Below, in pieces: positions 3,111 through 33,608 of a stretch of 33,608 nt of DNA. The stretch is from NCBI GenBank assembly GCA_903931735.1, contig CAIZDL010000252.1, positions 1-33,608 of the forward strand, given 5' to 3'. The stretch's first letter is position 1. Each line of letters opens with the position of its first letter. The stretch is from an uncultured Rhodospirillales bacterium. Lineage in GTDB: Bacteria; Pseudomonadota; Alphaproteobacteria; Azospirillales; Azospirillaceae. The notes below the pieces were generated by a model. That model did no database searches, was not told where the DNA came from, and saw nothing but the letters and a program-made list of their open reading frames with translations. The position numbers were made by a program, and so were the translations under genes.

Positions 3111-4586
3111 ATGAGCCCCGCCCCCAATACTTCAGACACTCTGGATCAGGTGAAAAATATCACCGATCAGAAGTATAAGTATGGCTTTGTTACCGAGATC
3201 GAGTCAGACACCGCGCCCAAAGGGCTGACGGAAGATACGATACGGTTTATCTCAGCCAAAAAGAACGAGCCGCAATGGTTGCTAGACTGGCGTTTGAAAG
3301 CATTTCGCCACTGGTTGACTATGAAAGAACCCAAGTGGGCGCGGGTCGCCTATCCCCCCATTGATTATCAAGATGCCCATTACTATTCCGCCCCCAAGAG
3401 CACACCACTGAAGAAAAGCCTCGACGAGGTTGACCCCGAACTTTTACGCACCTACGAAAAACTTGGAATTCCGATTAAGGAACAAGAACTATTGGCCGGC
3501 GTCGAGCCGACCATTGCGGTCGATGCGGTATTCGACAGCGTTTCCGTCGCCACAACCTTTAAAGCCAAGCTTCATGAAAAGGGAATTATTTTCTGCCCAA
3601 TCTCCGAGGCAGTGCAGACTCATCCAGAACTTGTGAAGCAATATCTCGGAAGTGTCGTTCCCTACTCCGATAACTATTTCGCAACACTCAATTCGGCGGT
3701 ATTTACCGACGGCTCGTTTGTTTACATTCCAAAAGGGGTCCGTTGCCCAATGGAATTGTCGACGTACTTTCGGATCAACGCCGCCAACACCGGACAGTTT
3801 GAACGCACCCTGATCATTGCTGACGCAGGCTCCTACGTTTCCTATCTTGAGGGGTGCACCGCGCCCAAACGCGACGAAAATCAATTGCACGCGGCGGTGG
3901 TCGAACTGGTGGCTCACGATGATGCTCAAATAAAATATTCGACCGTACAAAACTGGTATCCGGGTGACGAGCATGGAGTTGGCGGGATATACAATTTCGT
4001 CACCAAACGAGGCGCGTGCCGGGGCGTAAATTCAAAAATATCCTGGACTCAGGTAGAAACCGGCTCCGCGATTACCTGGAAGTACCCGAGCTGTATTCTT
4101 CAAGGTGACAACTCTGTTGGCGAATTCTACTCGGTCGCGATCACGAATAACTATCAGCAAGCGGACACCGGGACAAAAATGATCCATATCGGGCGCAACA
4201 CACGCTCGACCATTGTGGCAAAAGGAATTTCGGCCGGGCGGGCTCAAAGCACCTACCGCGGGTTGGTGAAAATTATGCCCAAGGCGATAGGGGCGCGCAA
4301 TCACACCCAATGCGACAGCCTATTGATTGGCGACAAGTGTGGCGCGCATACCGTTCCCTACATCGAGAGCCGAAACAAATCCGCCAAAATTGAACACGAA
4401 GCGACAACGGCAAAGATCAGTGAAGAACAGCTTTTCTACTGCCGCCAACGCGGCCTCACTCCGGAAGACGCGGTATCACTAATCGTAAATGGTTTTTGTC
4501 GCGAAGTTCTAAAGGAGTTGCCAATGGAATTCGCGGTCGAAGCACAAAAACTGGTCGGCATCAGCCTTGAAGGCAGTGTCGGATAA
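3111..4586 (+). CDS. sufB: Fe-S cluster scaffold subunit SufB
   Basis: This encodes 491 residues, the usual SufB length, and reads [19 protein letters not shown] near the N-terminus as in alphaproteobacterial SufB. The core contains the beta-helix region with [40 protein letters not shown] and [20 protein letters not shown]. SufB forms the SufBC2D complex in the cytosol, where the cluster is built. ATG 3111 is chosen over in-frame upstream codons inside the regulator gene because GGGAGAG lies just before it. The last 20 bases run close to sufC, whose start is 17 bases after the stop. Confidence 0.97.
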
Positions 4587-4602
4587 GGATGGGGACAATA
4601 AG

Positions 4603-5355
4603 ATGCTCGAAATTGTCAATCTTCATGCTTCCGTTGGCGACCGGCCAATTCTCAAAGGTATCGATTTGAGTATTAAGGCCGGCGATGTCCATGCAATTAT
4701 GGGGCCCAATGGCTCTGGCAAGAGCACTTTGTCCTATATTCTTGCGGGCAGAGACGGATACACGGTGACCGACGGTTCGGTAACGTATAATGGTGAAGAC
4801 CTGCTGGCGTTACCGCCCGAGCGGCGCGCCGCCACCGGTGTGTTCCTCGCCTTTCAGTATCCCGTCGAAATTCCCGGTGTTTCCAACTCGACCTTTCTCA
4901 AGACCGCGCTCAACGCGGTACGTCGGCAGCGCGGCGAGAGTGAACTTGATGCGATACAGTTCCTAAAGCTGGCCAGAGCCAAGTGCAAACAGCTCGGCAT
5001 GACTGACGAAATGCTTAAACGGGCGGTTAATGTCGGGTTTTCGGGCGGCGAAAAGAAGCGTAACGACATTTTGCAGATGGCATTGCTCGATCCGAAACTT
5101 ACCATTCTCGATGAAACCGACAGTGGACTCGATATCGATGCTCTGAGAATTGTCGCAGATGGCGTAAATTCGTTGCGCGGCCCGAATAGGGCGATGCTGG
5201 TGATCACACATTATCAGCGCCTCCTATCCTATATTGTTCCAGATTACGTCCATGTTTTGGCTTTTGGGCGAATTCAGCGGTCAGGTGGCAAGGAATTGGC
5301 ACTTGAGCTGGAAGCGCGCGGCTATGCTGAATTCGGCGTCAACGAGGCGGCCTGA
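4603..5355 (+). CDS. sufC: SUF complex ATPase SufC
   Basis: This 250-residue ABC-type ATPase has Walker A GPNGSGKST (about residues 36-44), the signature FSGGEKKRNDILQ in which the usual LSGGQ is modified as in SufC, and Walker B LTILDETDSGLDIDAL. A switch histidine follows in VITHYQRLL. It powers the SufBC2D scaffold; unlike transporters it has no membrane partner. The start at 4603 follows AAGGATGGGGA; in-frame upstream codons overlap sufB. The stop is one base before the sufD start, indicating translational coupling. Confidence 0.97.
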   Translation: MLEIVNLHASVGDRPILKGIDLSIKAGDVHAIMGPNGSGKSTLSYILAGRDGYTVTDGSVTYNGEDLLALPPERRAATGVFLAFQYPVEIPGVSNSTFLKTALNAVRRQRGESELDAIQFLKLARAKCKQLGMTDEMLKRAVNVGFSGGEKKRNDILQMALLDPKLTILDETDSGLDIDALRIVADGVNSLRGPNRAMLVITHYQRLLSYIVPDYVHVLAFGRIQRSGGKELALELEARGYAEFGVNEAA

Positions 5356-5356
5356 C

Positions 5357-6592
5357 ATGACTTGGCTCGACACTCTGCGCAACACGAACCGAAGCCGGTT
5401 TGCCGAGCTTGGGTTTCCCAAAACCGGGCAAGAGGCGTGGCGCTTCACCAACCTTGGCGCTCTCGCGGGCACGCCGTTTCAACCTGCCCCGCCCGCCTTC
5501 GCCAAGGTGGCCATCGAGACGCTGCCCTCAGTTACGCCCTCCCACCGGTTGGTTTTCGTCAACGGCTTCTTTTGTGCCAACGTGTCCGCGTCGGACATTT
5601 TGCCTGAGGGGGTAATTGCCGGGGGGCTTGCGGCAACGCTTAACCAACACCCAGCGTTGATTGAGGCCCACCTCGGCAAACTGGCCCACGACACCAACCA
5701 CGCCCCCCAGGCACTCAACACCGCCCACATCGCCGACGGCGCCGTACTGTACGTGCCCAAGGGTGTACGCGTGGCAAGGCCGATCGAGTTGGTGTGGATT
5801 GGCACAGGCGCCAACGAGCCGCTGTCCTGGCATCCCCGCCTGCTGGTGGTCCTGGAACCCGGCAGCGAGGCAACGCTGATAGAGCATCACCTCAGCCTGG
5901 ACGATGGCGCCGCCACCTTCGCCAACGGCGTTTCCGAACTGGCAGTGGGGGCGCACGCGCGCCTTCACCACTACAAAGTTCAGCGCGAGCGCAACAGCGC
6001 GTTTCACCTTTCCACCGTCGCCGGACGCCTGGAGCAGGGAGCTTATTACGAAGGCTTCCTGCTGACACTCGGAGCCAAATTATCGCGCAATGAAATAAAG
6101 TTGGTATTGGCTGGCCCTGGTGCTGAAGCCAAGCTGAGCGGAGCCTACCTCGTGCGCGGCCAACAACTGTGCGATACCACCACGCTCATTGATCACGCCA
6201 CGGCTCACGGCTCCAGCCAACAACTCTTTAAAGGCGTAATCGACGGTGCGGCCCAAGGTGTCTTTCAAGGAAAAATTCTGGTTCGCCCCGACGCTCAAAA
6301 GACCAATGCGCACCAGCTCAGCCGGGCGCTATTGCTTTCGGATGATGCCCGGATTGATGCCAAGCCAGAACTGGAGATCCATGCCGACGATGTTAAGTGC
6401 AGCCATGGGGCCACTACGGGCGATCTTGATGATGACGCCATGTTTTACCTGCGGGCTCGGGGGATCGATCAGGATAGCGCGCGCTCGCTGCTGATTGATG
6501 CCTATGTTAATGAGGTCATCGCCGAAATTACGTTTGAACCGGTGCGCGAGGCATTCGAAGCCCTTGCGTCCGCCTGGCGTTATGCCGGCTGA
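5357..6592 (+). CDS. sufD: Fe-S cluster scaffold subunit SufD
   Basis: The 411-residue product begins MTWLDTLRNTNRSRFAELGF, followed by the SufD hallmark GQEAWRFTNLGAL. The C-terminal half shows the SufB/SufD beta-helix with NAHQLSRALLLSDDARIDAKPELEI-type sequence, KCSHGATTG and DDDAMFYLRARGID. The invariant histidine of this region (in CSHGA) is present. SufD pairs with SufB and is involved in iron acquisition for the cluster. The start codon lies one base after the sufC stop. The gene is noticeably more GC-rich than sufB but has no sign of disruption. Confidence 0.96.
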   Translation: MTWLDTLRNTNRSRFAELGFPKTGQEAWRFTNLGALAGTPFQPAPPAFAKVAIETLPSVTPSHRLVFVNGFFCANVSASDILPEGVIAGGLAATLNQHPALIEAHLGKLAHDTNHAPQALNTAHIADGAVLYVPKGVRVARPIELVWIGTGANEPLSWHPRLLVVLEPGSEATLIEHHLSLDDGAATFANGVSELAVGAHARLHHYKVQRERNSAFHLSTVAGRLEQGAYYEGFLLTLGAKLSRNEIKLVLAGPGAEAKLSGAYLVRGQQLCDTTTLIDHATAHGSSQQLFKGVIDGAAQGVFQGKILVRPDAQKTNAHQLSRALLLSDDARIDAKPELEIHADDVKCSHGATTGDLDDDAMFYLRARGIDQDSARSLLIDAYVNEVIAEITFEPVREAFEALASAWRYAG

Positions 6593-20092: not shown

Positions 20093-20168
20093 GATCCCGT
20101 AGCTCAGTTGGTAGAGCACTTGACTTTTAATCAAGTGGCCCTGGGTTCGAATCCCAGCGGGATCACCA
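20093..20168 (+). tRNA. tRNA-Lys (anticodon TTT)
   Basis: The cloverleaf is complete. Acceptor arms GATCCCG and CGGGATC pair over 7 bases, the anticodon stem is CTTGA/TCAAG with loop CTTTTAA, and the T-arm is CTGGG-TTCGAAT-CCCAG. The CCA end is encoded (20166-20168). The anticodon is TTT at 20126-20128, so it reads lysine codons. The 3' end is a typical integration target, and an integrase gene lies 178 bases downstream. Confidence 0.97.
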
Positions 20169-20229: not shown

Positions 20230-20346
20230 GCGTGCGCCCAAAAACTAACCCCTTGATCTTCAACGTTTTTAGTGCTATTTCCACATTTCCTCCACGCTAC
20301 CAAAAGTAGTCGATCCTACACACATTGGACACGCGGGGTTCGCAAG

Positions 20347-21660
20347 ATGGGCTCCCATATCGAAAAAGAGCGGAAAATGTGTGATGACCGCGTCACCATT
20401 TATCTGCGAACTGATGTCAAGAAGGCAACTTGGCATTGTCGAATTGCCTTTCCAAAACAGCCGCATATCCGCCAATCGCTTCAGACCACCAATGAAAAAG
20501 AAGCCGAACGTAAGGCTGAAATCCTATACCGCGATCTGCTCTACCGCTTCGAACGAGGGCTCCCCCTCAAGCGCGTGAAGTTCGAGGAAGTGGCGGCTGC
20601 ATACTTCCTCCACCTTGAGGATGAGGTCAATCGGGGTATCACCAAGCTGGAGAGGCTGACCACCAACCGCATCATGAGCAAATATCCGGTCGAGTATTTC
20701 AAGGGCCGGTATATCGACACAATCACCAGCGCAGACATCACCAAGTTTTACGACTGGCGTAGAAAATATTGGTTCAGTGGTCCGGGAAGCAAGGTCGAAG
20801 AGGTCACCTATGAACGCGCAGGCAAGACCGTCGTATCGAAAAAGAAGCCGCCTAAGGCACCGGCCTTGAGCACGGTCAATAGCGAGAATGTCTTGCTCCG
20901 TGCGGTTTTCAATTACGCCGCTCGCCATGACTGGATCACCACCTCACAGATACCGGTGATCGAGACTAAAGTCCCACACGCACAAAAAAGCCGTGATGCC
21001 CACCGCCGACCCGGGCTTGATCGTGATGAAGTGAAGCGATTGATCGCAGCCAGCGAAAAACGACTTCAAGAGGCAGATAATGACGATCGCCTCTACCACC
21101 AACGAGCCATGCTCCACACCTTCGTTGGCTTGATGGCGTTCGCCGGCATGCGCCCGTTCGAAGCCATGAATTTAACCTGGAAGGATATGGTCGTCAGCCC
21201 GGAAGTTAAGGGGCCAAAGCGGTTCTGGAAAATATATGTCAGCGGGAAGAACAAGTCGCGATGGCTGGTTCCACTCAATGAGATCGAACCTTTTATCGAT
21301 AATCTTATCGCCTACACGAGGGGCTTGCTCAATGAGAAAGACCCAGAGCGAGACGACATACTGAAGTGCGATGACACGCCAATCTTTCTTGATTACAACG
21401 GAACAAAACTAAAAAGTTTGGCGGCTGGGTTTAAGAACCTTATGAAGGACGCCGGGCTTTATATTGACCCAGAAACCAAGAAGCCAAGGGATAGTTATTG
21501 TTTGAGGCATTATTACGCCACGGAACGACTTCTATCCGGTGTCGGAATATATACCTTGGCGGAGAACATGGGCACGTCGGTTCAGATGATCGAGCGGCAT
21601 TACGGCCACCTCAAGCCAGAGATGGCCGCAGCCGAACTCACCAAGACCAACAAGGCTTGA
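20347..21660 (+). CDS. Tyrosine integrase of the tRNA-Lys island
   Basis: From ATG 20347 the product has 437 residues. It has an N-terminal DNA-binding region and a SAM-like core-binding domain (about residues 78-200). The C-terminal catalytic domain has Arg I at R269 in FAGMRPFEAMNL, lysine in the beta-hairpin VSGKNKSRW, Arg II at R387 in YCLRHYYAT (the usual first histidine is tyrosine) and catalytic Y419 in IERHYGHL. The usual LGH before the tyrosine reads MGT. It should recombine the element into the 3' end of the tRNA-Lys gene. The frame also opens at GTG 20272. It points away from the tRNA, as in most islands of this kind. Confidence 0.92.
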   Translation: MGSHIEKERKMCDDRVTIYLRTDVKKATWHCRIAFPKQPHIRQSLQTTNEKEAERKAEILYRDLLYRFERGLPLKRVKFEEVAAAYFLHLEDEVNRGITKLERLTTNRIMSKYPVEYFKGRYIDTITSADITKFYDWRRKYWFSGPGSKVEEVTYERAGKTVVSKKKPPKAPALSTVNSENVLLRAVFNYAARHDWITTSQIPVIETKVPHAQKSRDAHRRPGLDRDEVKRLIAASEKRLQEADNDDRLYHQRAMLHTFVGLMAFAGMRPFEAMNLTWKDMVVSPEVKGPKRFWKIYVSGKNKSRWLVPLNEIEPFIDNLIAYTRGLLNEKDPERDDILKCDDTPIFLDYNGTKLKSLAAGFKNLMKDAGLYIDPETKKPRDSYCLRHYYATERLLSGVGIYTLAENMGTSVQMIERHYGHLKPEMAAAELTKTNKA

Positions 21661-22451: not shown

Positions 22452-22503
22452 GATCGACTCGGGGTGATGGTTGGTCGGATCGACTCGGGCTGATGGTTGG
22501 TCG
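22452..22503. repeat. 26-bp tandem duplication
   Basis: Two directly abutting 26-base units (22452-22477 and 22478-22503), each beginning GATCGACTCGGG and ending GGTTGGTCG, differ at a single position. They lie in the gap between the DUF3768 start and the DUF6641-like stop. Confidence 0.9.
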
Positions 22504-22567: not shown

Positions 22568-23056
22568 TCACTTGCCGGCCTTCGGCGCCTGTGTGGTGGT
22601 GCCGGCCTTCGGCAGCTTCAGGGTGCGCTTGCGGCTATCGCTGGCGACCTTCAGCGCCGCATCCAGTTCACCCTGCATCACCGCCTTGCGGATGGTAGTC
22701 AGGGTCGGAACCAGCTTGTCCATGGCCCCGACCACGATGCTGGGCTTGCCGTTCACCGAGATCGGCTTGTTGGCGAACCTGAGTTCGATCATGATCCGGT
22801 CGCTGGCATCACGGAACCACATCCGCCGGAGCGTCTTCTGGACTTTCGCCCGCTCTTTGGCGCCGGTCGCCTTGTCGGCTACGACCCACTTCTCGACGGG
22901 GATGGTGTAGGTTTCACCCTTCAGTTCCGCCTCGGCTCCCGCTATCTGGTGATCCAGCGCCGCTGCCATCTTGCGGCGAAGATTGATCTTCGGGTCTGTG
23001 TTTTCAGTGCGGCGGTTGCTCTCACTGAAGGTCAGAGTATCTAACAAGTTGCCCAT
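22568..23056 (-). CDS. DUF6641-like protein
   Basis: The 162-residue product resembles DUF6641 proteins: an N-terminal RRKMAAALDHQIAGAEAELK helix followed by GETYTIPVEKWVVAD, then WFRDASDRIMIELRFANKPI, GKPSIVVGAMDKLVPTL and IRKAVMQGELDAAL. The tail is lysine- and alanine-rich. ATG 23056 is chosen because GGAG ends 6 bases upstream; ATG 23059 and 23068 are in frame. The family is typical of alphaproteobacterial mobile elements and has no known function. The family name is from memory of its motifs. Confidence 0.6.
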   Translation of the reverse strand: MGNLLDTLTFSESNRRTENTDPKINLRRKMAAALDHQIAGAEAELKGETYTIPVEKWVVADKATGAKERAKVQKTLRRMWFRDASDRIMIELRFANKPISVNGKPSIVVGAMDKLVPTLTTIRKAVMQGELDAALKVASDSRKRTLKLPKAGTTTQAPKAGK

Positions 23057-23064
23057 CATGCTCT

Positions 23065-23101
23065 CCATAGGTTGTCCGTGTTGCTACGGATAATCCTATG
23101 G
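23065..23101 (-). promoter_or_regulatory. Palindrome over the leader of the DUF6641-like gene
   Basis: CCATAGG-TTGTCCGT (23065-23079) mirrors ACGGATAA-T-CCTATGG (23086-23101) across a 6-base centre, with one mismatch and a one-base bulge. It ends at the ribosome binding site. It could be an operator or an mRNA hairpin that hides the GGAG. Confidence 0.55.
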
Positions 23102-24400: not shown

Positions 24401-24447
24401 CATCACAACTCAATATTTTGACCTAAGATTGATATTGAGTTGTGATG
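24401..24447. repeat. Perfect 16-bp inverted repeat at the primase-helicase 3' end
   Basis: CATCACAACTCAATAT (24401-24416) and its exact complement (24432-24447) surround 15 bases. The repeat includes the primase-helicase stop codon. No T-run follows on either strand, so it is not a standard terminator. Confidence 0.85.
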
Positions 24448-27084
24448 TGCATATGAAAGAAGCTGTGGACTTCGAGATATATGACCGTGATATGTGTAGC
24501 GCACAAGCGATGTATGATTATTACGAGTTTTTATCTTGCCAAGGAATGCGAGCCTACTATCGACTTCTGATATTTGTGTTATAGAACTACTAAAAGATTT
24601 AGGGGATATTTTGTTCTTGTTTTCTTCATGTGTTACGGAAACTACCTCCTCGTTTTCCCTTATAGGGGTTTTCGTAACACCAGCGTCCAAAACATCTCTT
24701 GATATCAATGTGGTAGTTTGTGCTGACTTCTTCCGCTCTCGATATGCCCTCTGTTTTTCAGCAGGAGTTTGGGCATTGTCCTTCTTGGGCCTACCGCCCT
24801 TGTCCACCCCATCAACTGCGAGCACGCCGGGAATATGTTGGATTGGCATCCCTGTCCGCTCGTGTAGATATTCAGCTTGGTATCTGTCAAAGACATAAAC
24901 CTTATTGAATGCGCCACTTTCATAATCACGCAACGATGTTCGCATGACAAATTGATATAGCGGATTAAACTCCCGCCATCGAATCTGTGTTGATATATCA
25001 ATATCAAAGACAGTCTTCATAACATCTTGATCTTGACCGGATAACTTCAAGGCACCAAGCCATACGCACATCGTATGATGCTGGTATTGGTTCAAGCCTG
25101 TCGTCTTCAAAGATAATATTTCAGCATTTTTGCAGACATTTGTTATGTTTATGACACTAAAGTTCTTCTCCTCTGCATGCTGTGCGACAATAAATGGATT
25201 GGCACCGTGGTTTTCGCCAAGCCATTTAACAATCGCCATAAGCGGAGAATCTCCCTTTTTGAATTGATTGATTGATGCTTGGCGGTGTTCTGCAAAATAG
25301 TAAATTACTCCACGATCTTTCAGTGGCACTTTACGCTCGCGCGGTCTTTTGAGATTGATGAATTTGAATGCAACTTTATGCTGCTTATCCCAAACATTAT
25401 AGATCGGAGATTGTTTTATTTCATCGCCCATCAGCCAGACCACATTGAAGTTCTTGATATATTCCGGCGAACTTATCGTCCACAATGTCAGCCTTGTTTC
25501 ACCGCGCTTTTCCCAAGCCGTCTTATGACACCACACTGTCGCATATTGCTTTGATAGAGTTTCGAGCAAATCACGAAATGTAGCATTGATATCATCAAAT
25601 GCCTTATCCTCAACCAACGCATCACCGGCAGTTGTTGCAACAATCTGGAAATAGTCGCTATAGGTATCTCGCACTTGAAAATACCTATCTGCGAGATCAA
25701 TGTTGTAATCCCATTTCCGCTGATACATGCCAAGCACTTCGTATGCCTCATCGATGACAAGCGAGAACCCATGAAACTTACTTGCATCTAAGATTTGCAA
25801 TGCTGCGTTTGATATGAAGATCACAACGTTCTTGCTATACATCGCGTTAATGATTTCGTCAACCTGCTTTGATACCGGAACCGAATCTTGGTAAAATGCT
25901 TTCGATATCTGAAAGTTTCTGACATTTTGTTTCGAGCAAAACTCTCTAAACTCAAGCTCTCGTTCTTTGATGTTTTTGATTGTGTCGCAAACGTATAACC
26001 AACGACCACCTTGAATTACGATATTGTTTAGCATCTCGTAGGTTTTTCCAACGCCGCACGGAGCGTCGATTACGTTGACGACACAATCACTAAACCGCTC
26101 AACCCAATGCTGATCCTTTGGAGCCTGGATCACTGGAGCCTTCTGCTTTGAAGGAAGTTTTTTCATGATATCACAATCGCATTGCATCGCCTCATAAATC
26201 ACGGAGCCGATAGTTGGCGCCTTTGTTGCTTTATACTGTTTGTTGATTAATGAGCCATATTCGCCTGGAGTTTCTTCCGGCCATGCTTCACGGAGCACCG
26301 ACATTGCATTTGGCGTATATGAATGCACCGCCCATGACAGACGCAACCAGTCCTTACGATTTGGCCTGCCGGAGATTGTTTTAAGAAGAAACACAATATC
26401 ATCGTCAGTAATATCTTGTTCGTCGTTTGCGGCATGTGCAATCTCGTATTCGACATTGTTGGTTTCGACTTGTCTTACTGGTCGTGAGAATTCTTTATAA
26501 TATGCATCTTGAGCTTTCTCGATGTTTAATGGCTCACCTGAAGCTTTAAAAAATACTGCATCATCTGACCACTTGGCTGGAATATAGTAAATTCTTCCAA
26601 GCGTGTTGCAAGCATCATCAAGCTTGCAATCGAACATTTGATAGATAGTATCCCAAACAAGATCATGGCTTTCAGCCGCATACTCACGGTCAATTTGGAT
26701 GATGCCGCGCAGGCAATGGTTCTCGCTTGAGTGGCTTGTGGTTGAATAAATGCAGCCATTAAGGTTATACTTTCGGAAATACTCAATCATATCGTCTAAT
26801 GGAATATTGTGCTTATCTGCATCTATCATAACCCAAGAACCAAATCCTATTACGTTGTCGTCGTTGCGATATCCCTCAAATAATGATGGCATAATGGCCG
26901 GTGTATGGTTAAGTTTGAATTCCTTTGTCGCCTCTTTCGGAAACTTTGAAATGCATTCCAGCCAGTCGATAAATTCTGTCCACGTTTTCGAGTGGCGCTT
27001 TGGGTTAACATCTTTTGAATTATGAATATATGAAAATCTTATATTGATTTCATCATTTGATTTGTTATAAATATTGTCAGTCAT
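24403..27084 (-). CDS. Primase-helicase fusion protein of a mobile element
   Basis: The 893-residue protein appears to combine three parts. The N-terminus resembles archaeo-eukaryotic-type primases: WVMIDADKH (D88, D90) fits the metal-binding motif, YSTTSHSSENHCLRG (H118) the second motif, and DDACNTLGRIYYIP the third. Residues about 228-300 (SGRPNRKDWLRLSWAVHSY, then AWPEE and NKQYK) match a PriCT-2-type domain. The rest is a P-loop helicase-like region with Walker A DAPCGVGKT (340-348) and Walker B LVIDEAYE (D445, E446), and a basic C-terminal tail. It should start DNA replication of the element. The leader contains an AGGCGG site and a hairpin. Composition is markedly AT-rich compared with the backbone. 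Confidence 0.85.
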   Translation of the reverse strand: MTDNIYNKSNDEINIRFSYIHNSKDVNPKRHSKTWTEFIDWLECISKFPKEATKEFKLNHTPAIMPSLFEGYRNDDNVIGFGSWVMIDADKHNIPLDDMIEYFRKYNLNGCIYSTTSHSSENHCLRGIIQIDREYAAESHDLVWDTIYQMFDCKLDDACNTLGRIYYIPAKWSDDAVFFKASGEPLNIEKAQDAYYKEFSRPVRQVETNNVEYEIAHAANDEQDITDDDIVFLLKTISGRPNRKDWLRLSWAVHSYTPNAMSVLREAWPEETPGEYGSLINKQYKATKAPTIGSVIYEAMQCDCDIMKKLPSKQKAPVIQAPKDQHWVERFSDCVVNVIDAPCGVGKTYEMLNNIVIQGGRWLYVCDTIKNIKERELEFREFCSKQNVRNFQISKAFYQDSVPVSKQVDEIINAMYSKNVVIFISNAALQILDASKFHGFSLVIDEAYEVLGMYQRKWDYNIDLADRYFQVRDTYSDYFQIVATTAGDALVEDKAFDDINATFRDLLETLSKQYATVWCHKTAWEKRGETRLTLWTISSPEYIKNFNVVWLMGDEIKQSPIYNVWDKQHKVAFKFINLKRPRERKVPLKDRGVIYYFAEHRQASINQFKKGDSPLMAIVKWLGENHGANPFIVAQHAEEKNFSVINITNVCKNAEILSLKTTGLNQYQHHTMCVWLGALKLSGQDQDVMKTVFDIDISTQIRWREFNPLYQFVMRTSLRDYESGAFNKVYVFDRYQAEYLHERTGMPIQHIPGVLAVDGVDKGGRPKKDNAQTPAEKQRAYRERKKSAQTTTLISRDVLDAGVTKTPIRENEEVVSVTHEENKNKISPKSFSSSITQISEVDSRLAFLGKIKTRNNHTSLVRYTYHGHISRSPQLLSYAHHNSISILGQNIEL

Positions 27085-27763: not shown

Positions 27764-28603
27764 TCAACCGCCACGCATCTGGTTCCAAACCATCACGATT
27801 TCATGTCCAATTTTTCCGCCACGTGCATTAGAATGATGTGCATCATAAACTGAATGAATTGCATTTTGCGCCTTCGCAAGCAACCCCTCAAAGAACTTGC
27901 CATCGGTATTGTTTGTATGGACTACAGTAATGCTCGCTCGCTGCCCCAACATGTTGCACCAATTAAAGAACTCGAACTGGTCCGCATTATCGAAATTTGA
28001 ATAATATAAGTCTGGGGCACCAAGATATGGAGGATCACAAAAAACGAGGCTGTCATTCGGTATGGCTAACTTTTTGTATGACCCACAAACAATCTCAGTA
28101 TCCTGAAGCGCCTTATGCCAAAGCCTGAGTTTAAACTCAGATATAAGTGATGGGCCTTCACATTGGCGGCGATTATGTCCGGATGACGGGTCAAATATTC
28201 CTGTTGTCCTGTCTCTCATCCACATACATCCAAACGAAGTATTTAGAAGAAACAGCAGTCTTCCGCTTGATGGATTGCGGCGATATAAATCGCTCTCTTC
28301 CCAGAACTTATACTTTCTATCATTGGAAGAAAGTTTTACATATTCCCGCTCAATATCCTTGACCTCAACAATGATGTCTTCGGCATAGTCTTGTATGTCG
28401 CGGTAAATCTTTATCAACTCTGGATTGATATCGTTAACGATATATCGACGAGCGAGATTGTAATTTTTCGCATAACAAAATACAGACCCGCCGCCAAAAA
28501 ATGGCTCAACATACACATCAGTCCGTTGAAGGTAGTTTGAAAAATGCTTCAGTAGCCGCCCCTTGCCACCAGCATACGGGTATAGTGGTTTAAGTTCAGG
28601 CAT
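27764..28603 (-). CDS. D12-class DNA adenine N6-methyltransferase (Dam-like)
   Basis: The 279-residue enzyme has the D12-class order: PYAGGKGRL at the N-terminus, motif I DVYVEPFFGGGSVF (residues 29-42), IVNDINPELI, and the catalytic DPPYLG (D190-Y193). A conserved C-terminal region follows with HTNNTDGKFF and GHEIVMVWN. It transfers a methyl group from S-adenosylmethionine to adenine N6. The recognition site cannot be read; GATC is common in the class. No restriction endonuclease gene lies beside it. It starts 9 bases after the transglycosylase stop, so the two are almost certainly cotranscribed. Confidence 0.93.
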   Translation of the reverse strand: MPELKPLYPYAGGKGRLLKHFSNYLQRTDVYVEPFFGGGSVFCYAKNYNLARRYIVNDINPELIKIYRDIQDYAEDIIVEVKDIEREYVKLSSNDRKYKFWEESDLYRRNPSSGRLLFLLNTSFGCMWMRDRTTGIFDPSSGHNRRQCEGPSLISEFKLRLWHKALQDTEIVCGSYKKLAIPNDSLVFCDPPYLGAPDLYYSNFDNADQFEFFNWCNMLGQRASITVVHTNNTDGKFFEGLLAKAQNAIHSVYDAHHSNARGGKIGHEIVMVWNQMRGG

Positions 28604-28612
28604 GACGATAAG

Positions 28613-29782
28613 CTACTCTATAAACCGGCGATATCGCTTCAAGTCAACATCATCAATTGGAAATGCTCCAATTCCTACATCGCTAACGTTTTGAAAAACA
28701 CGCTCGATGTCCTCTTTAATGTCAACAAATGCCGAAGGAACGAGCCCATTATTTCTAAGCTCTGCAACGGACATCTCACTGTTTATGTTAATTTGGTTAA
28801 TTGCGTCATTCTGACTTATCATATTAGTCAGAATGCGTTGGCAATAATTTGTTTCCTCATCATCTCGTCGCCGTGTTTTTTCCAGAACAAGCCGAACCTC
28901 ATCATAGTTTATTTCTGATCCCATAATTTCGCTGCCATAAATTCCATATTGAACCGTGCTGGAACTATCATATGAAATCTGTGCCGTGGGGCAAATATAT
29001 TTCTTGATGCACCGATGTAGGATGTTATTAACCCAAACAGCCTTGAGACTGCTTCTGCCCAATATATGTATCCAGTTCCTATCTGCCGATATGCTGCGGT
29101 CCTTCCACAAATGCAGGATAATACGAACAGTTACGTCTGGATTGGCAGCAACCGGCCCAGCAAAGCTCCATCCCTCAAATTCAAATTCTTTTACGGCATT
29201 ATACCAAGCAACTGCTTGGTCAATATTCTGGCCTTGAATAACATTAAGAAACCTTGATTTTCGATATGTCCGTTCATTTTCGATGAATGCACAATTGTAC
29301 AATGTTTCGTCGAGACACTCTTGAAATAAACTGAATAGGTAGTTTGGAGCGCCAAGCGCCCATGTAGGGTAGTCAATAGTCATACTGTAATCTGAAAATT
29401 CTTCGCTCCATGCAATTATCCGGCTTCGGATTTTATCCGCCTGACGGCCATGAATGTCTTTGCGGAAGGTTTCTCCACCGGAAAATACGCCAGTTCCAAT
29501 TTGGTATCCGCCGGAATCCGATATCAAAATTGTTGTAGATCGATCTCTATTAGCAATCATTCCTTCCTTATCACGACATTTATTCGGATCAAGATGGGCA
29601 TGGCCCGCACTATAAAGAGCTGCCCCATGATACAATTTAGTATTCGACGGGCTAAACCAATTGAGTTGATCGCAAATTGGTGTGGGGGCGTTTGAGCAGT
29701 GGCGAACATACATAGCGCTCGCTGCTGGCGTCAAAAGAGGGTAGTTTGGGTTAAGCCCAATTTCTTCGACCTGATATGCCAT
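28613..29782 (-). CDS. DpdA-type guanine transglycosylase (TGT superfamily)
   Basis: The 389-residue protein has the TGT barrel motifs. ILISDSGGYQIGTG (D89) matches the DSGG(F/Y)Q motif, SMTIDYPTWA (D137) the base-recognition aspartate, FLNVIQGQN the VQG motif, and FEGWSFAGP the GGL region. HILGRSS corresponds to the YLMG motif and QISYDSSST (D272) to the nucleophile. All three key aspartates are present. The CxCxxC...H zinc site of bacterial Tgt is not seen. This and its partners favour the DNA-modifying DpdA branch, which inserts 7-deazaguanine derivatives into DNA, over queuosine tRNA modification. I chose ATG 29782 because GGAAG lies 6 bases upstream; the frame opens earlier at TTG 29842. 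Confidence 0.82.
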   Translation of the reverse strand: MAYQVEEIGLNPNYPLLTPAASAMYVRHCSNAPTPICDQLNWFSPSNTKLYHGAALYSAGHAHLDPNKCRDKEGMIANRDRSTTILISDSGGYQIGTGVFSGGETFRKDIHGRQADKIRSRIIAWSEEFSDYSMTIDYPTWALGAPNYLFSLFQECLDETLYNCAFIENERTYRKSRFLNVIQGQNIDQAVAWYNAVKEFEFEGWSFAGPVAANPDVTVRIILHLWKDRSISADRNWIHILGRSSLKAVWVNNILHRCIKKYICPTAQISYDSSSTVQYGIYGSEIMGSEINYDEVRLVLEKTRRRDDEETNYCQRILTNMISQNDAINQININSEMSVAELRNNGLVPSAFVDIKEDIERVFQNVSDVGIGAFPIDDVDLKRYRRFIE

Positions 29783-29839: not shown

Positions 29840-29876
29840 CAATATCTTGCCGACATGCTGCCCGACAGTATTCCGA

Positions 29877-31988
29877 TCAGTATGGCTTCGACGGGAGATG
29901 CACCCACATCCGCCCGCAAACCAAGATCAGCGGAATGCACATCCGTTTGCCGACCTCTCTGCCGGTTGTGCGGCGGTAGCGGTCATTTTCATCAAGCACA
30001 TATTCCTTGCCGACCGCTTGGTCAGAGCAAAGGTCAGGCAATCTTGTATAATGCTTATCCCTTAGTTCATACTCATTCAGACGATCATCCCCAGGCAATG
30101 GCTTTGGGTAATAGATGGTGGTGATGGGAATAGCCTCTTCATATGATAAGCATTCTCTGGCCTGCTCCCCTTCACCGATAACGATCTCATCCAACCGATT
30201 GGGAACCCGGATTTCCCATGGATTGCTGATAAAATTCCATATACGCTCCATCTTCTTTTCTGGAACGCACCACTTACCAACGATATGCCCAGCATTCATT
30301 TTGCCGACCACCATAAATTCACCACTGTAGACATATTCTGGCTTCGTATCATCTTTCTTTAATGAAGCCGCCGCTTTAATTGGTGGAAACCATATTCCGA
30401 TAACTCCATGCTCAATCGCTAAGATAATATCAATATCGGAAATCACACCGCTACGACCTTGCAAATCCTTCCATCTCTTAAACTCTTTTCTTGCTTTATC
30501 AAAATCGACTGCTTCAGATAGAATGTTTCCGCCATCAAACATTGCGAGCTTAAGGTAGGGAAATCCTGACGGAACTTCAGATTGATACTTCATCAAGCCA
30601 TTCTTTGGGTCCTTTTTGCCTGGCAGCCACTTTCGTTGCGATGTCGTTTCCCAGCGAGCGCCCATGCACTTAAATGAAATAAGGCTATTGCCCGACCACT
30701 CAATGTTTAGGTTCTCTTTCGATTTCGCAATTAGGTCAAGCTCTTTTGTACTGTAGCCGATGCTGAATACATCGAAGCCAGCCTTGTCATGTTCGGTATT
30801 TTGCCCATCATAAACAACAGGGAATGTTGTATCAAAGTCGCTTCCGCTTTCAGGTATGTCACCAATCTCAATGACGACAGAAAAGTGGTTCTCTCGGCAA
30901 TGAGACACTTTGCCATTATCGTCAATCCATGTCGGATATATCGGCATTAAATACATAGTGTAGTTATCTTGCCACATTAAAAATTCAGGTGGCATGATCA
31001 ACTTTCGAATGTTCTGAATTATCTCAGAAATCTGCTCGCTGCTTTGCGCCTTATGATCATACTGGGCCGCATACTGAGTTGCGTGTCGCAGCTTGACTGT
31101 TGCGTCAATTCTCCGTTGATCGCTGTCGGTCACATCAAATAGTGTAAGTGTGTCGCCGCTAACAGACCCAAGAATGAGGAAATTACCATCTTTTTCAAGC
31201 CACGTAGGCCTTGGAATTTGGACTTTTGTGTTGTCACCAATCTTCTTTGCAAAGTCAACGGGCTTGTCCTTAGATCCAACATCAGCATCCTTTTTTGGTT
31301 TGATGGACCGTATGAACTTTAGCGCCGCTACAATGCCTTTGCCACAGGCGACCTTGCCGTCTTTCGCCTTTTCATCATCAATGTATATGGTGTTGGATAT
31401 CCAGGTCACAAAATTGTGCCTATTATATTCCACCGCCCACGTCAGGATTGTATTGTATTTTGAGCGTAGCGTTGCATCAGCATTTGGAAAGAAAAAGGCC
31501 AAAAGAACTGGGCACGGGCTCTCCTTAAAGTTCGCAACCCACTTGTCGTCAATCTTGCCAAGTTTAGGGCGGCCAATGTTAATAAACCCCTTGCCTTCGT
31601 CAACTGCTTTCTTGAGGTCAATAAATGCGGCTAAAATAACTGCGCTATCTATATCTGGTACTTTTATTGAAAGCGTCAAAATCATGTCTAGTGTTCGATA
31701 TAGTGAGCCGAACCCTTTTTCATATCCATAAATCGAAACTTGCGCGTCCCGCAGATCGTCACTGTTCGCAATTTCACCAATATCGCGGAGGAGAGGATTT
31801 GCGTCCTCAATTGATAGCTTTGTTGTTTTGTCTCCTTTGAGGCAGATTGATACTTCAAAATCGTCTTGCATGATGTCTGGCTGAAGCTCATCTCCGCCAT
31901 TGTAGCCGGTGTCAAGGGTCAGAACCGCTTCACCGTTTTCTTTAGCCGCATTTACAGTGTTGAGATTTGCATCGATCTCGTTTGCCAT
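29877..31988 (-). CDS. 703-residue protein of unknown function, first gene of the modification operon
   Basis: A large soluble protein with no membrane segment or signal peptide. It has an acidic N-terminus (residues 1-45), a mixed alpha/beta region with YGYEKGFGSLYRTLDMILTL, and a lysine-rich linker near 235-250 (SIKPKKDADVGSKDKPVDFA). The C-terminal half is rich in Trp, Gly and Asp. I see no Walker, nuclease, methyltransferase or zinc-binding motif. GGGGG lies 8 bases before ATG 31988. It is the first gene of a leftward operon with the transglycosylase and adenine methyltransferase, so a role in modification, precursor handling, or virion/element structure is possible. This is context only. 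Confidence 0.8.
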   Translation of the reverse strand: MANEIDANLNTVNAAKENGEAVLTLDTGYNGGDELQPDIMQDDFEVSICLKGDKTTKLSIEDANPLLRDIGEIANSDDLRDAQVSIYGYEKGFGSLYRTLDMILTLSIKVPDIDSAVILAAFIDLKKAVDEGKGFINIGRPKLGKIDDKWVANFKESPCPVLLAFFFPNADATLRSKYNTILTWAVEYNRHNFVTWISNTIYIDDEKAKDGKVACGKGIVAALKFIRSIKPKKDADVGSKDKPVDFAKKIGDNTKVQIPRPTWLEKDGNFLILGSVSGDTLTLFDVTDSDQRRIDATVKLRHATQYAAQYDHKAQSSEQISEIIQNIRKLIMPPEFLMWQDNYTMYLMPIYPTWIDDNGKVSHCRENHFSVVIEIGDIPESGSDFDTTFPVVYDGQNTEHDKAGFDVFSIGYSTKELDLIAKSKENLNIEWSGNSLISFKCMGARWETTSQRKWLPGKKDPKNGLMKYQSEVPSGFPYLKLAMFDGGNILSEAVDFDKARKEFKRWKDLQGRSGVISDIDIILAIEHGVIGIWFPPIKAAASLKKDDTKPEYVYSGEFMVVGKMNAGHIVGKWCVPEKKMERIWNFISNPWEIRVPNRLDEIVIGEGEQARECLSYEEAIPITTIYYPKPLPGDDRLNEYELRDKHYTRLPDLCSDQAVGKEYVLDENDRYRRTTGREVGKRMCIPLILVCGRMWVHLPSKPY

Positions 31989-32380: not shown

Positions 32381-32953
32381 TTAAAGCACTTCGACGGCGG
32401 CGCGCATCAGGTCGTCATTCACTTCTATATACCGCTGCGTGGTGGTGAGGTGCTTGTGCCCAGCCAGTTGCATGATGACCTTCGCACTGATGCCGCTGTG
32501 GGCCAACTTGGTGATGAACCAACGCCTGCCCGAATGGCTGGTGGCGCCGTCCAGCCCTGCGGCGTCGTATAGATCGCCCATGAGTTGGCACAAGGTGTTG
32601 GCGCTGAATGCCGTCCGCTTCTGCGTCATCAGCAGGGGCCGGTCATGAGCAACGGTGTCCGCAAGCGTGGTGCGATATCGCTCGATCTCACGACGAAGCC
32701 GGTCACTGACGAACACGACCCGAGCATGCCCCCCCTTGGTGATTTCAGACGACAGCCGGATTTGGCTGCGCACCGTTTTGGAGTCGGCCTCGAAAACATC
32801 CCCGATCGTCAGCGCGGCGATCTCGCCTACGCGCATTCCGGCTTGGTAGGATAGGATGAAGGCCATCCGGTTGCGAGCGGCGTGCTTGGCTTGGCTGACG
32901 ACGGCGAGGATACGCTTTTGCTCGTGGTCGGTGAGAACTCTGGCTTGAGACAT
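32381..32953 (-). CDS. Minimal tyrosine recombinase (FimB/FimE-sized)
   Basis: From ATG 32953 the product has only 190 residues, essentially the catalytic domain with a short N-terminus, as in FimB/FimE-type recombinases. All catalytic residues are in place: R41 in QAGMRVGEIAAL, K73 in EITKGGHAR, H140 and R143 in SHSGRRWF, H166 in LAGHKHL and Y175 in TTQRYIEV. GAGG lies about 8 bases before the start; the frame also opens further upstream to 33019. It lies 270 bases from the large palindrome in front of the modification operon. Its substrate sites are unknown; a hairpin-like dyad lies 106-137 bases upstream of its start. Confidence 0.88.
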   Translation of the reverse strand: MSQARVLTDHEQKRILAVVSQAKHAARNRMAFILSYQAGMRVGEIAALTIGDVFEADSKTVRSQIRLSSEITKGGHARVVFVSDRLRREIERYRTTLADTVAHDRPLLMTQKRTAFSANTLCQLMGDLYDAAGLDGATSHSGRRWFITKLAHSGISAKVIMQLAGHKHLTTTQRYIEVNDDLMRAAVEVL

Positions 32954-32956
32954 CGC

Positions 32957-32965
32957 AAACCTCAT
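32957..32965. repeat. AAACCTCAT direct repeat copy at the recombinase start
   Basis: The 9-mer AAACCTCAT here is repeated at 33059-33067, where it forms part of a dyad. It may be chance, or a recombinase-binding half-site. Confidence 0.3.
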
Positions 32966-33058
32966 AATATGCTGGTTGCTCATGCCAAAGATTATGTTTC
33001 CAGGTTGGGTGAAGGTCAAACGAAGGTTGAACCCCAGCGATTACGGGCGCTTGGGGCG

Positions 33059-33248: not shown

Positions 33249-33608
33249 TTAACACATACACCTACTACATGTTGGATGTATCCAGTCGCCAGAATAAAGC
33301 GCGACATAGGTCGGCGCCTCGGCCCCGCCCGCGATACCCAGCAACGATCTGAAGGCATTGAACGGGTAGAAACGCCGATTGAAGCGGAAGGTGAACTCGT
33401 TGAGGTAGGCTTGCAGGTGCTTGGGGCTGACGCCGTGATGGGTGCCGTTGAGCCAGGCTTTCAGGTTCGAGAAGACCAGGTGGATAATCGGCATGAACTC
33501 TTCAGCGATCTCGGGATTGCCGCATTCGGCAATGGCGTGATGATCGTAGCCGAGCTTTCTGAGGCTGCCATAACCGCTCCAGTCGTCGCTGACGATCAGT
33601 GTGCCCGG
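33249..33608 (-). mobile_element. IS1595-family transposase, C-terminal part (continues beyond window)
   Basis: The reverse strand is open from the right edge to a stop at 33249-33251, giving about 119 codons of the transposase C-terminus. It contains the DDE-domain pattern SDDWSGYGSLRKLGYDHH, then HLVFSNLKAWLNGTHHGVSP, KHLQAYLNEFTFRFNRRFYP and a C-terminal cysteine-containing tail. The residue aligned with the usual third acidic position appears to be asparagine in FSNLKAW, a variant of this family as I recall it. The N-terminal zinc-binding domain and the upstream IS end lie outside the window, and I could not place the terminal inverted repeat on this side. Confidence 0.85.

Follow-up and report, generated by a model that had tools for sequence, protein, structure and literature searches.

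A DpdA-like guanine transglycosylase and an adjacent companion gene as candidate DNA-marking cargo of a putative tRNA-integrated island in an uncultured Rhodospirillales bacterium

The window, by which we mean the whole stretch of 33,608 nt analysed here, holds the following features between a tRNA-Lys gene and the end of its contig:

20093..20168 (+), tRNA-Lys(UUU), the presumed attachment site (ARAGORN)
20272..21660 (+), tyrosine integrase of the element (PF00589, 3.5e-8; phrog_1, 9e-33)
22568..23068 (-), DUF6641-like ORF (PF20346, 8.3e-5, below cut-off)
24403..27084 (-), primase/helicase-like replication protein of 893 aa (phrog_2467, no function given, 1.1e-36; phrog_9765, DNA primase, 1.3e-13)
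27764..28603 (-), D12-class (Dam-like) N6-adenine DNA methyltransferase (PF02086, E 8.9e-26)
28613..29782 (-), DpdA/TGT-superfamily guanine transglycosylase of 389 aa with D89, D137 and D272 (AlphaFold2 model, Foldseek, VIA, alignments A1 and A2)
29877..31988 (-), companion ORF of 703 aa, 94 bp upstream of the transglycosylase on the same strand, no known family
32381..33019 (-), short single-domain tyrosine recombinase of 212 aa (PF00589, 1.4e-24)

The transglycosylase ORF is intact: it runs from an ATG at 29782 to a stop codon that is included in 28613-29782 (-), and an alternative TTG start at 29842 would lengthen the protein to 409 aa. A sequence-only reading of this DNA had assigned the protein of 389 aa three aspartates of the TGT superfamily, and these are found where it placed them, D89 in ISDSGGYQ, D137 in TIDYPT and D272 in ISYDSSS. 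The VQG-type loop that it described reads NVIQG (G184), and the zinc-binding cysteines that it found missing are absent from the whole family, as the CxCxxC motif occurs in 0 of 93 family members, the window protein included, versus 20 of 24 TGT sequences (TGTs extracted from 30 loci). Both neighbours it had named are also present, the D12-class methyltransferase 9 bp downstream on the same strand (TIGR00571, 116 bits versus a cut-off of 114.85) and the primase/helicase-like ORF. No row of alignment A1 (13 rows) or A2 (60 rows) departs from the three aspartates, a conservation far beyond chance. According to the alignments, a section of the C-terminal region present in its relatives is missing from the window copy, which also reads T-N at a position that is H-N in most relatives. 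No family of Pfam, PF01702 included, of PHROGs or of PADLOC matched the protein at E up to 1, its best NCBIfam match was non-significant (E 0.19), and PF01702 matched a single one of 13 relatives (E 0.066, Pfam).

AlphaFold2 with A2 as input, that is the window protein and 59 viral-contig relatives, returned a model with pLDDT 88.7 and pTM 0.89. The single-sequence run reached a pLDDT of 31.8, and the alignment-based model alone was used. In a Foldseek search of the PDB, ranks 1-15 were TGT chains (E 4.7e-7 to 3.3e-6) and rank 16 was 7ui4, the 'DNA preQ0 insertase DpdA' of Salmonella (E 1.6e-5); the structural overlay on Tgt and DpdA that had been suggested as a check on the assignment is thereby in place, with TGTs as the best matches and DpdA matched as well. 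VIA-align gave a Z of 21.4 for human TGT (4.2 Å over 298 residues) and 20.7 for an archaeal TGT, and Z was about 20 over 278-298 residues among the TGT matches listed. Among the first eight matches in a viral structure library are a phage Motura protein named 'tRNA guanine transglycosylase' and the nt-1 protein R9TGF0 (E 3.9e-8), whose 464 aa equal the length of nt-1 DpdA2. The window protein is thus predicted by the model to be a TIM-barrel of the TGT fold with the catalytic residues. This fold cannot tell DNA from tRNA as the substrate, and the best structural matches are tRNA enzymes.

Set against set, hhalign scored the window family at 96.9% with DpdA2 (nine sequences) and at 90.9% with TGT (24), and four reversed-sequence controls stayed at or below 0.7%. 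The set-against-set alignments bring the DSGG, D137, QG, LG and D272 positions into register with TGT and DpdA2. The score of 1.8% with five sequences of the 9g type (DpdA1) says little, since the same 9g profile reaches just 2.4% even with TGT and 1.6% with DpdA2. Against single sequences, the family profile matched neither nt-1 DpdA2 nor 9g DpdA, and hhalign with A2 gave 1.5% for nt-1 DpdA2, 0.1% for 9g DpdA and 0.03% for an integrase control. A PDB search with the window protein alone returned nothing relevant, and with a 13-row profile human and mouse TGT had E about 1 and ranked behind unrelated dioxygenases. In a 49-row tree, the window protein and all bacterial and viral members stand opposite DpdA2 and TGT with support of 99/97, the bacterial and viral rows being intermixed inside this clade, and the six DpdA2 rows form one side of a branch (100/99) that does not contain the window family. 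The window copy sits on a long branch (2.62) and the tree program issues a warning of several long branches meeting, so its position within its own clade is not fixed.

Judged from the sequences, the window family appears as a separate DpdA-like lineage, set apart in the tree from DpdA2 and TGT; DpdA3 and DpdA4 are reportedly further DpdA subfamilies named by Cui et al. 2023. Its relation to DpdA2 is a distant one as far as profiles indicate. The profile and phylogeny checks proposed earlier gave a divided answer, as the family does not group with tRNA TGT and has its own clade (99/97), but lies outside the DpdA2 clade also. The core of the earlier assignment, a DpdA-like member of the TGT superfamily, is borne out by the fold, the catalytic residues, the absent zinc motif and a clade shared with phage proteins near preQ0-pathway genes.

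These phage proteins were found by tblastn in 13 of 50,697 phage records, namely 11 Pseudomonas phages of 284-288 kb, including PA5oct (twice), Paride and MIJ3, as well as Sinorhizobium phage Phosso and Vibrio phage 2.275.O. The homologue is labelled 'hypothetical protein' in all 13 records, and those of the jumbo phages PA5oct, Paride and MIJ3 are 33% identical to the window protein. IMG/VR encodes at least 592 relatives among at least 599 motif-matching stretches; we kept 80 of the relatives, and the neighbour counts use 81 viral loci. The single window protein as query found no locus in genomes and one viral locus.

Genes of the preQ0 pathway recur beside the viral members. In Vibrio phage 2.275.O the dpdA-like gene adjoins QueF, a YhhQ-type transporter, QueC and FolE, and in Paride it lies near a QueE-like gene and a weakly glycosyltransferase-like gene (gp116). 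By BLAST, FolE occurs in 43 of 81 viral loci (12 of 17 clusters), QueE in 23 (6 of 17), a Paride-gp116-like gene in 63 (13 of 17) and QueD in one, while QueC and QueF appear in none at the BLAST level used; these are minimum counts, since just 39 of the 81 loci extend 5 kb or more in both directions. FolE, QueE and the gp116-like gene were each absent from 13 background viral loci, a small set mostly of integrase-bearing contigs in which L204 and L206 themselves carry a dpdA-like gene, leaving 11 free of it (L202 and L203 were not counted as background). Support for a glycosyltransferase in the gp116 family is weak: PF00534 matches at E 0.00097, below cut-off, and the best PDB match has E 0.32. 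A gene cluster with a family B DNA polymerase representative is found in 74 of 81 viral loci, mostly upstream of the dpdA-like gene. PA5oct has already been credited with a system for deazaguanine synthesis and incorporation (Iyer et al. 2021, PMC7824862).

Two further phage genes deserve mention. A conserved gene of about 131 aa (cluster 3; 69 of 81 loci, L018-L097) lies at an offset of about +2.2 kb from dpdA and carries H-x-H and S-C-E motifs that look QueD-like by eye, a resemblance that neither Pfam nor a PDB profile search supported. A sliding-clamp reading, considered for a 245-aa phage gene next to dpdA and for the C-termini of the companions, was discarded, with hhalign at or below 0.84% and no support from PDB profile searches.

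Among bacterial genomes the dpdA-like gene is found in 9 of 82 from the taxonomic family of the window, 2 of 385 from its class and 4 of 398 from its phylum, with the window's own genome in each count. A companion ORF of 247-703 aa stands directly beside it in 13 of 14 bacterial loci, at distances between a 103-bp overlap and a 94-bp gap; the overlap, in L154, may only stem from a start codon called too early. Nine of these 13 companions precede the dpdA-like gene on the same strand, two are divergent and two convergent. The exception is L197, where the dpdA-like gene is truncated to 277 aa and no companion was seen. The 14 loci include L206, an IMG/VR contig found through the recombinase search, and omit the B510 copy (L009, L017; 97% identical to L152) and L204, which is identical to L153.

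The companions have diverged widely in sequence. The window companion weakly resembles two others, from L154 (E 2e-5) and L148 (0.03); between these two the E value is 3e-50. A second set comprises L150, L153, L196, L149 and L195, joined by L206 at 23-24% identity; L151 and L152 pair, and the companions of L155 and L190 match no other. For the window companion nothing fell below E 0.1 in Pfam, PHROGs, NCBIfam and PADLOC, and eight companions (window, L148-L153, L155) gave no convincing Pfam or PADLOC match (best E 0.0074). A PDB profile search with five companions (L149, L150, L153, L195, L196) revealed no nuclease or ATPase domain. The window companion matched one of 289 genomes, its own, and nothing was found among plasmids. 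A companion profile had no match at E up to 1 among the ORFs of the viral loci, and against phages the L154 companion returned a weak tape-measure match alone (E 0.02). The sequence-only reading had seen in the window a reduced, phage-like arrangement, a view we do not retain: in bacteria the dpdA-like gene comes in a distinct arrangement, together with a companion that was not seen in viral loci and mostly in the vicinity of the short recombinase, which at its other places is accompanied by restriction-modification (R-M) genes.

The same reading had placed the gene inside a tRNA-integrated mobile element, a setting that is supported in relatives. The integrase ORF starts 103 bp past the tRNA-Lys gene and its product is 33% identical to the tRNA-side integrases of L150 and L154. 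Four of nine stretches have a tRNA gene on the integrase side, tRNA-Phe in L150, L153 and L154 and tRNA-Pro in L155 (ARAGORN). In genomes G035 and G021 a 47-nt stretch that ends the tRNA-Phe gene recurs without mismatch on the opposite side, bounding elements of about 21.7 and 16.7 kb with the dpdA-like gene inside. In the window the far repeat was not found, as a genome-wide search for the 24-nt tRNA end, allowing up to one mismatch, gave a single occurrence. From 33249-33494 to the contig end an ORF resembles, by eye, part of an IS transposase, and a contig ending in an IS would account for the absence of the island's far end. The L155 element may be damaged, given that its integrase is split over two ORFs that overlap.

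Further parts of the window element have counterparts elsewhere. The primase/helicase-like protein is 22% identical to the product of an L150 ORF lying between the dpdA-like gene and the short recombinase, and the DUF6641-like ORF has homologues in L155, L182, L183, L185, L188, L195 and L197. A tandem pair of a 26-nt repeat lies at 22452-22503, near the integrase end. When 15 bacterial stretches were compared with the associated queries, just two matches emerged, one to a gp116-like gene (L154) and the other to a helicase (L150), and no preQ0 genes were matched beside the bacterial copies. The L154 gene (7793-8914, -; same stretch in L012) encodes a protein 46% identical to Paride gp116 and lies beside the dpdA-like gene; its sequence hints at bases decorated with sugar, or else at an exchange of genes with phages of this kind.

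Close copies of the short recombinase (E below 1e-60) occur in 8 of 9 genomes with the dpdA-like gene versus 5 of 73 without it (Fisher p 3e-7, kinship ignored). Of six recombinase places without the dpdA-like gene (L184-L189), five contain R-M or methyltransferase genes, which are of type I in L184, L187 and L189, type III in L186 and a cytosine-type methyltransferase in L188; in L185 one ORF was scanned and gave no match. In L153 the dpdA-like gene and its companion lie near a type III-like methyltransferase and a restriction subunit. Because other places of the recombinase hold R-M or methyltransferase genes, we read the pair as DNA-marking cargo.

Host supply of preQ0 or preQ1 is plausible. 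The claim that the element draws on host preQ0 gains from TGT, QueC and QueF, all found in the host genome, with TGT at a separate locus (G000:C50, E 3.5e-153), and is weakened by the lack of a PF01242 match for QueD in the 291-contig draft, QueD being found in 9 of 14 control genomes.

On the ground of fold, catalytic residues, family, pairing and island context, we propose that a DNA-guanine transglycosylase of the DpdA kind and its companion are DNA-marking cargo of a tRNA-integrated island, which would use a 7-deazaguanine base of the host and protect against restriction. We favour this proposal with moderate confidence, because the argument for a DNA substrate is reached through a distant relative. 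During base exchange TGTs employ one aspartate as nucleophile and another as acid/base. By analogy, D272 would be the nucleophile that forms the covalent intermediate and D89 the acid/base. The enzyme would release guanine from DNA and insert preQ0 or preQ1 made by the queuosine pathway of the host, while the companion may supply DNA binding or site choice, the role that DpdB has in dpd islands. Encoded on the same strand, transglycosylase, companion and adenine methyltransferase would together mark DNA; marked DNA would be recognized as self and protected from restriction, and the companion possibly restricts.

DNA is preferred over tRNA as the probable substrate chiefly, and by analogy, for the phage context and for the dPreQ0 that phage nt-1 DNA contains (PMC6884629). 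A paralogue that alters the tRNAs of the host, for instance when the element excises or a phage infects, would suit the closest solved structures, which are tRNA enzymes, but we consider it improbable given that the protein has neither a PF01702 match nor the zinc-site motif, that the host's own TGT scores 3.5e-153 and that phage relatives lie near replication genes and FolE/QueE. An intact ORF, all invariant catalytic residues and intact neighbours in the same direction likewise make it improbable that the island holds a degenerate or catalytically inactive remnant, although the long branch, the missing C-terminal stretch and the truncated copy in L197 would fit with one.

A further alternative is a two-gene defence akin to R-M, with the transglycosylase labelling the DNA of the host and the companion attacking DNA that lacks the mark. 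Such a role would agree with the pairing in 13 of 14 loci, the sequence diversity of the companions, as expected of arms-race genes, the type I (L184, L187, L189) or type III (L186) R-M genes at other places of the same recombinase and the type III-like R-M genes near the L153 pair. Since no nuclease or ATPase domain was recognised in eight companions (Pfam, PADLOC) or in five (PDB profile), we regard it as unlikely. Its most specific form, a compact 7-deazaguanine R-M system of two genes, would be carried in the R-M-type cargo site of tRNA-integrated islands, with a DpdA-family enzyme of jumbo-phage lineage that marks host DNA and a fast-diverging companion that senses or destroys unmarked DNA; we offer this as a doubtful conjecture.

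If the favoured proposal of DNA-marking cargo is true, a transglycosylase and one companion would constitute a much smaller bacterial set for 7-deazaguanine chemistry and a simple system for asking what the accessory protein does. The DNA 7-deazaguanine systems described in the sources cited here are dpd islands, bacterial clusters of more than ten genes (PMC6884629), phage pathways, and a predicted BREX-related system (PMC12839542), and a pairing of a dpdA-like gene with such a companion in bacteria was not found described in the open-licence literature. The window shares with the dpd islands the fold of DpdA 7ui4 and the proposed role of DNA marking in a genomic island, and differs in its two-gene arrangement; none of the dpd proteins was recognised among five window ORFs scanned (PADLOC), with the island end lying off the contig. 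The BREX-related capture system, a predicted seven-component HerA/PglZ system, likewise includes a TGT-like protein in a predicted defence locus, and its authors found no DpdB or DpdC there (PMC12839542). It differs in the HerA/PglZ components, none of which appeared among the window ORFs scanned.

As to phages, DpdA2 of nt-1 (YP_008125322; Hutinet et al. 2019, PMC6884629) resembles the window family in DSGGxQ, H-x-LG, SYDSS and the absence of CxCxxC, and its gene adjoins preQ0 synthesis genes, as do those of some phage members of the window family. It differs in its separate tree branch (100/99), and the single protein has no BLAST or HMM match to the window family. The PA5oct, Paride and MIJ3 homologues belong to the same sequence family as the window protein and differ in their phage setting with QueE-like and gp116 genes. 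A large phage family, labelled 'hypothetical' in the 13 named records matched, would also be linked to DNA modification, and the catalytic-domain-only tyrosine recombinase of this bacterial family might serve to find further defence cargo. Finally, L197 (noted at 4145-6351) has two ORFs that by eye resemble housekeeping queA and tgt, with a tRNA-Leu gene between them, a few kb from the truncated dpdA-like gene of G565.
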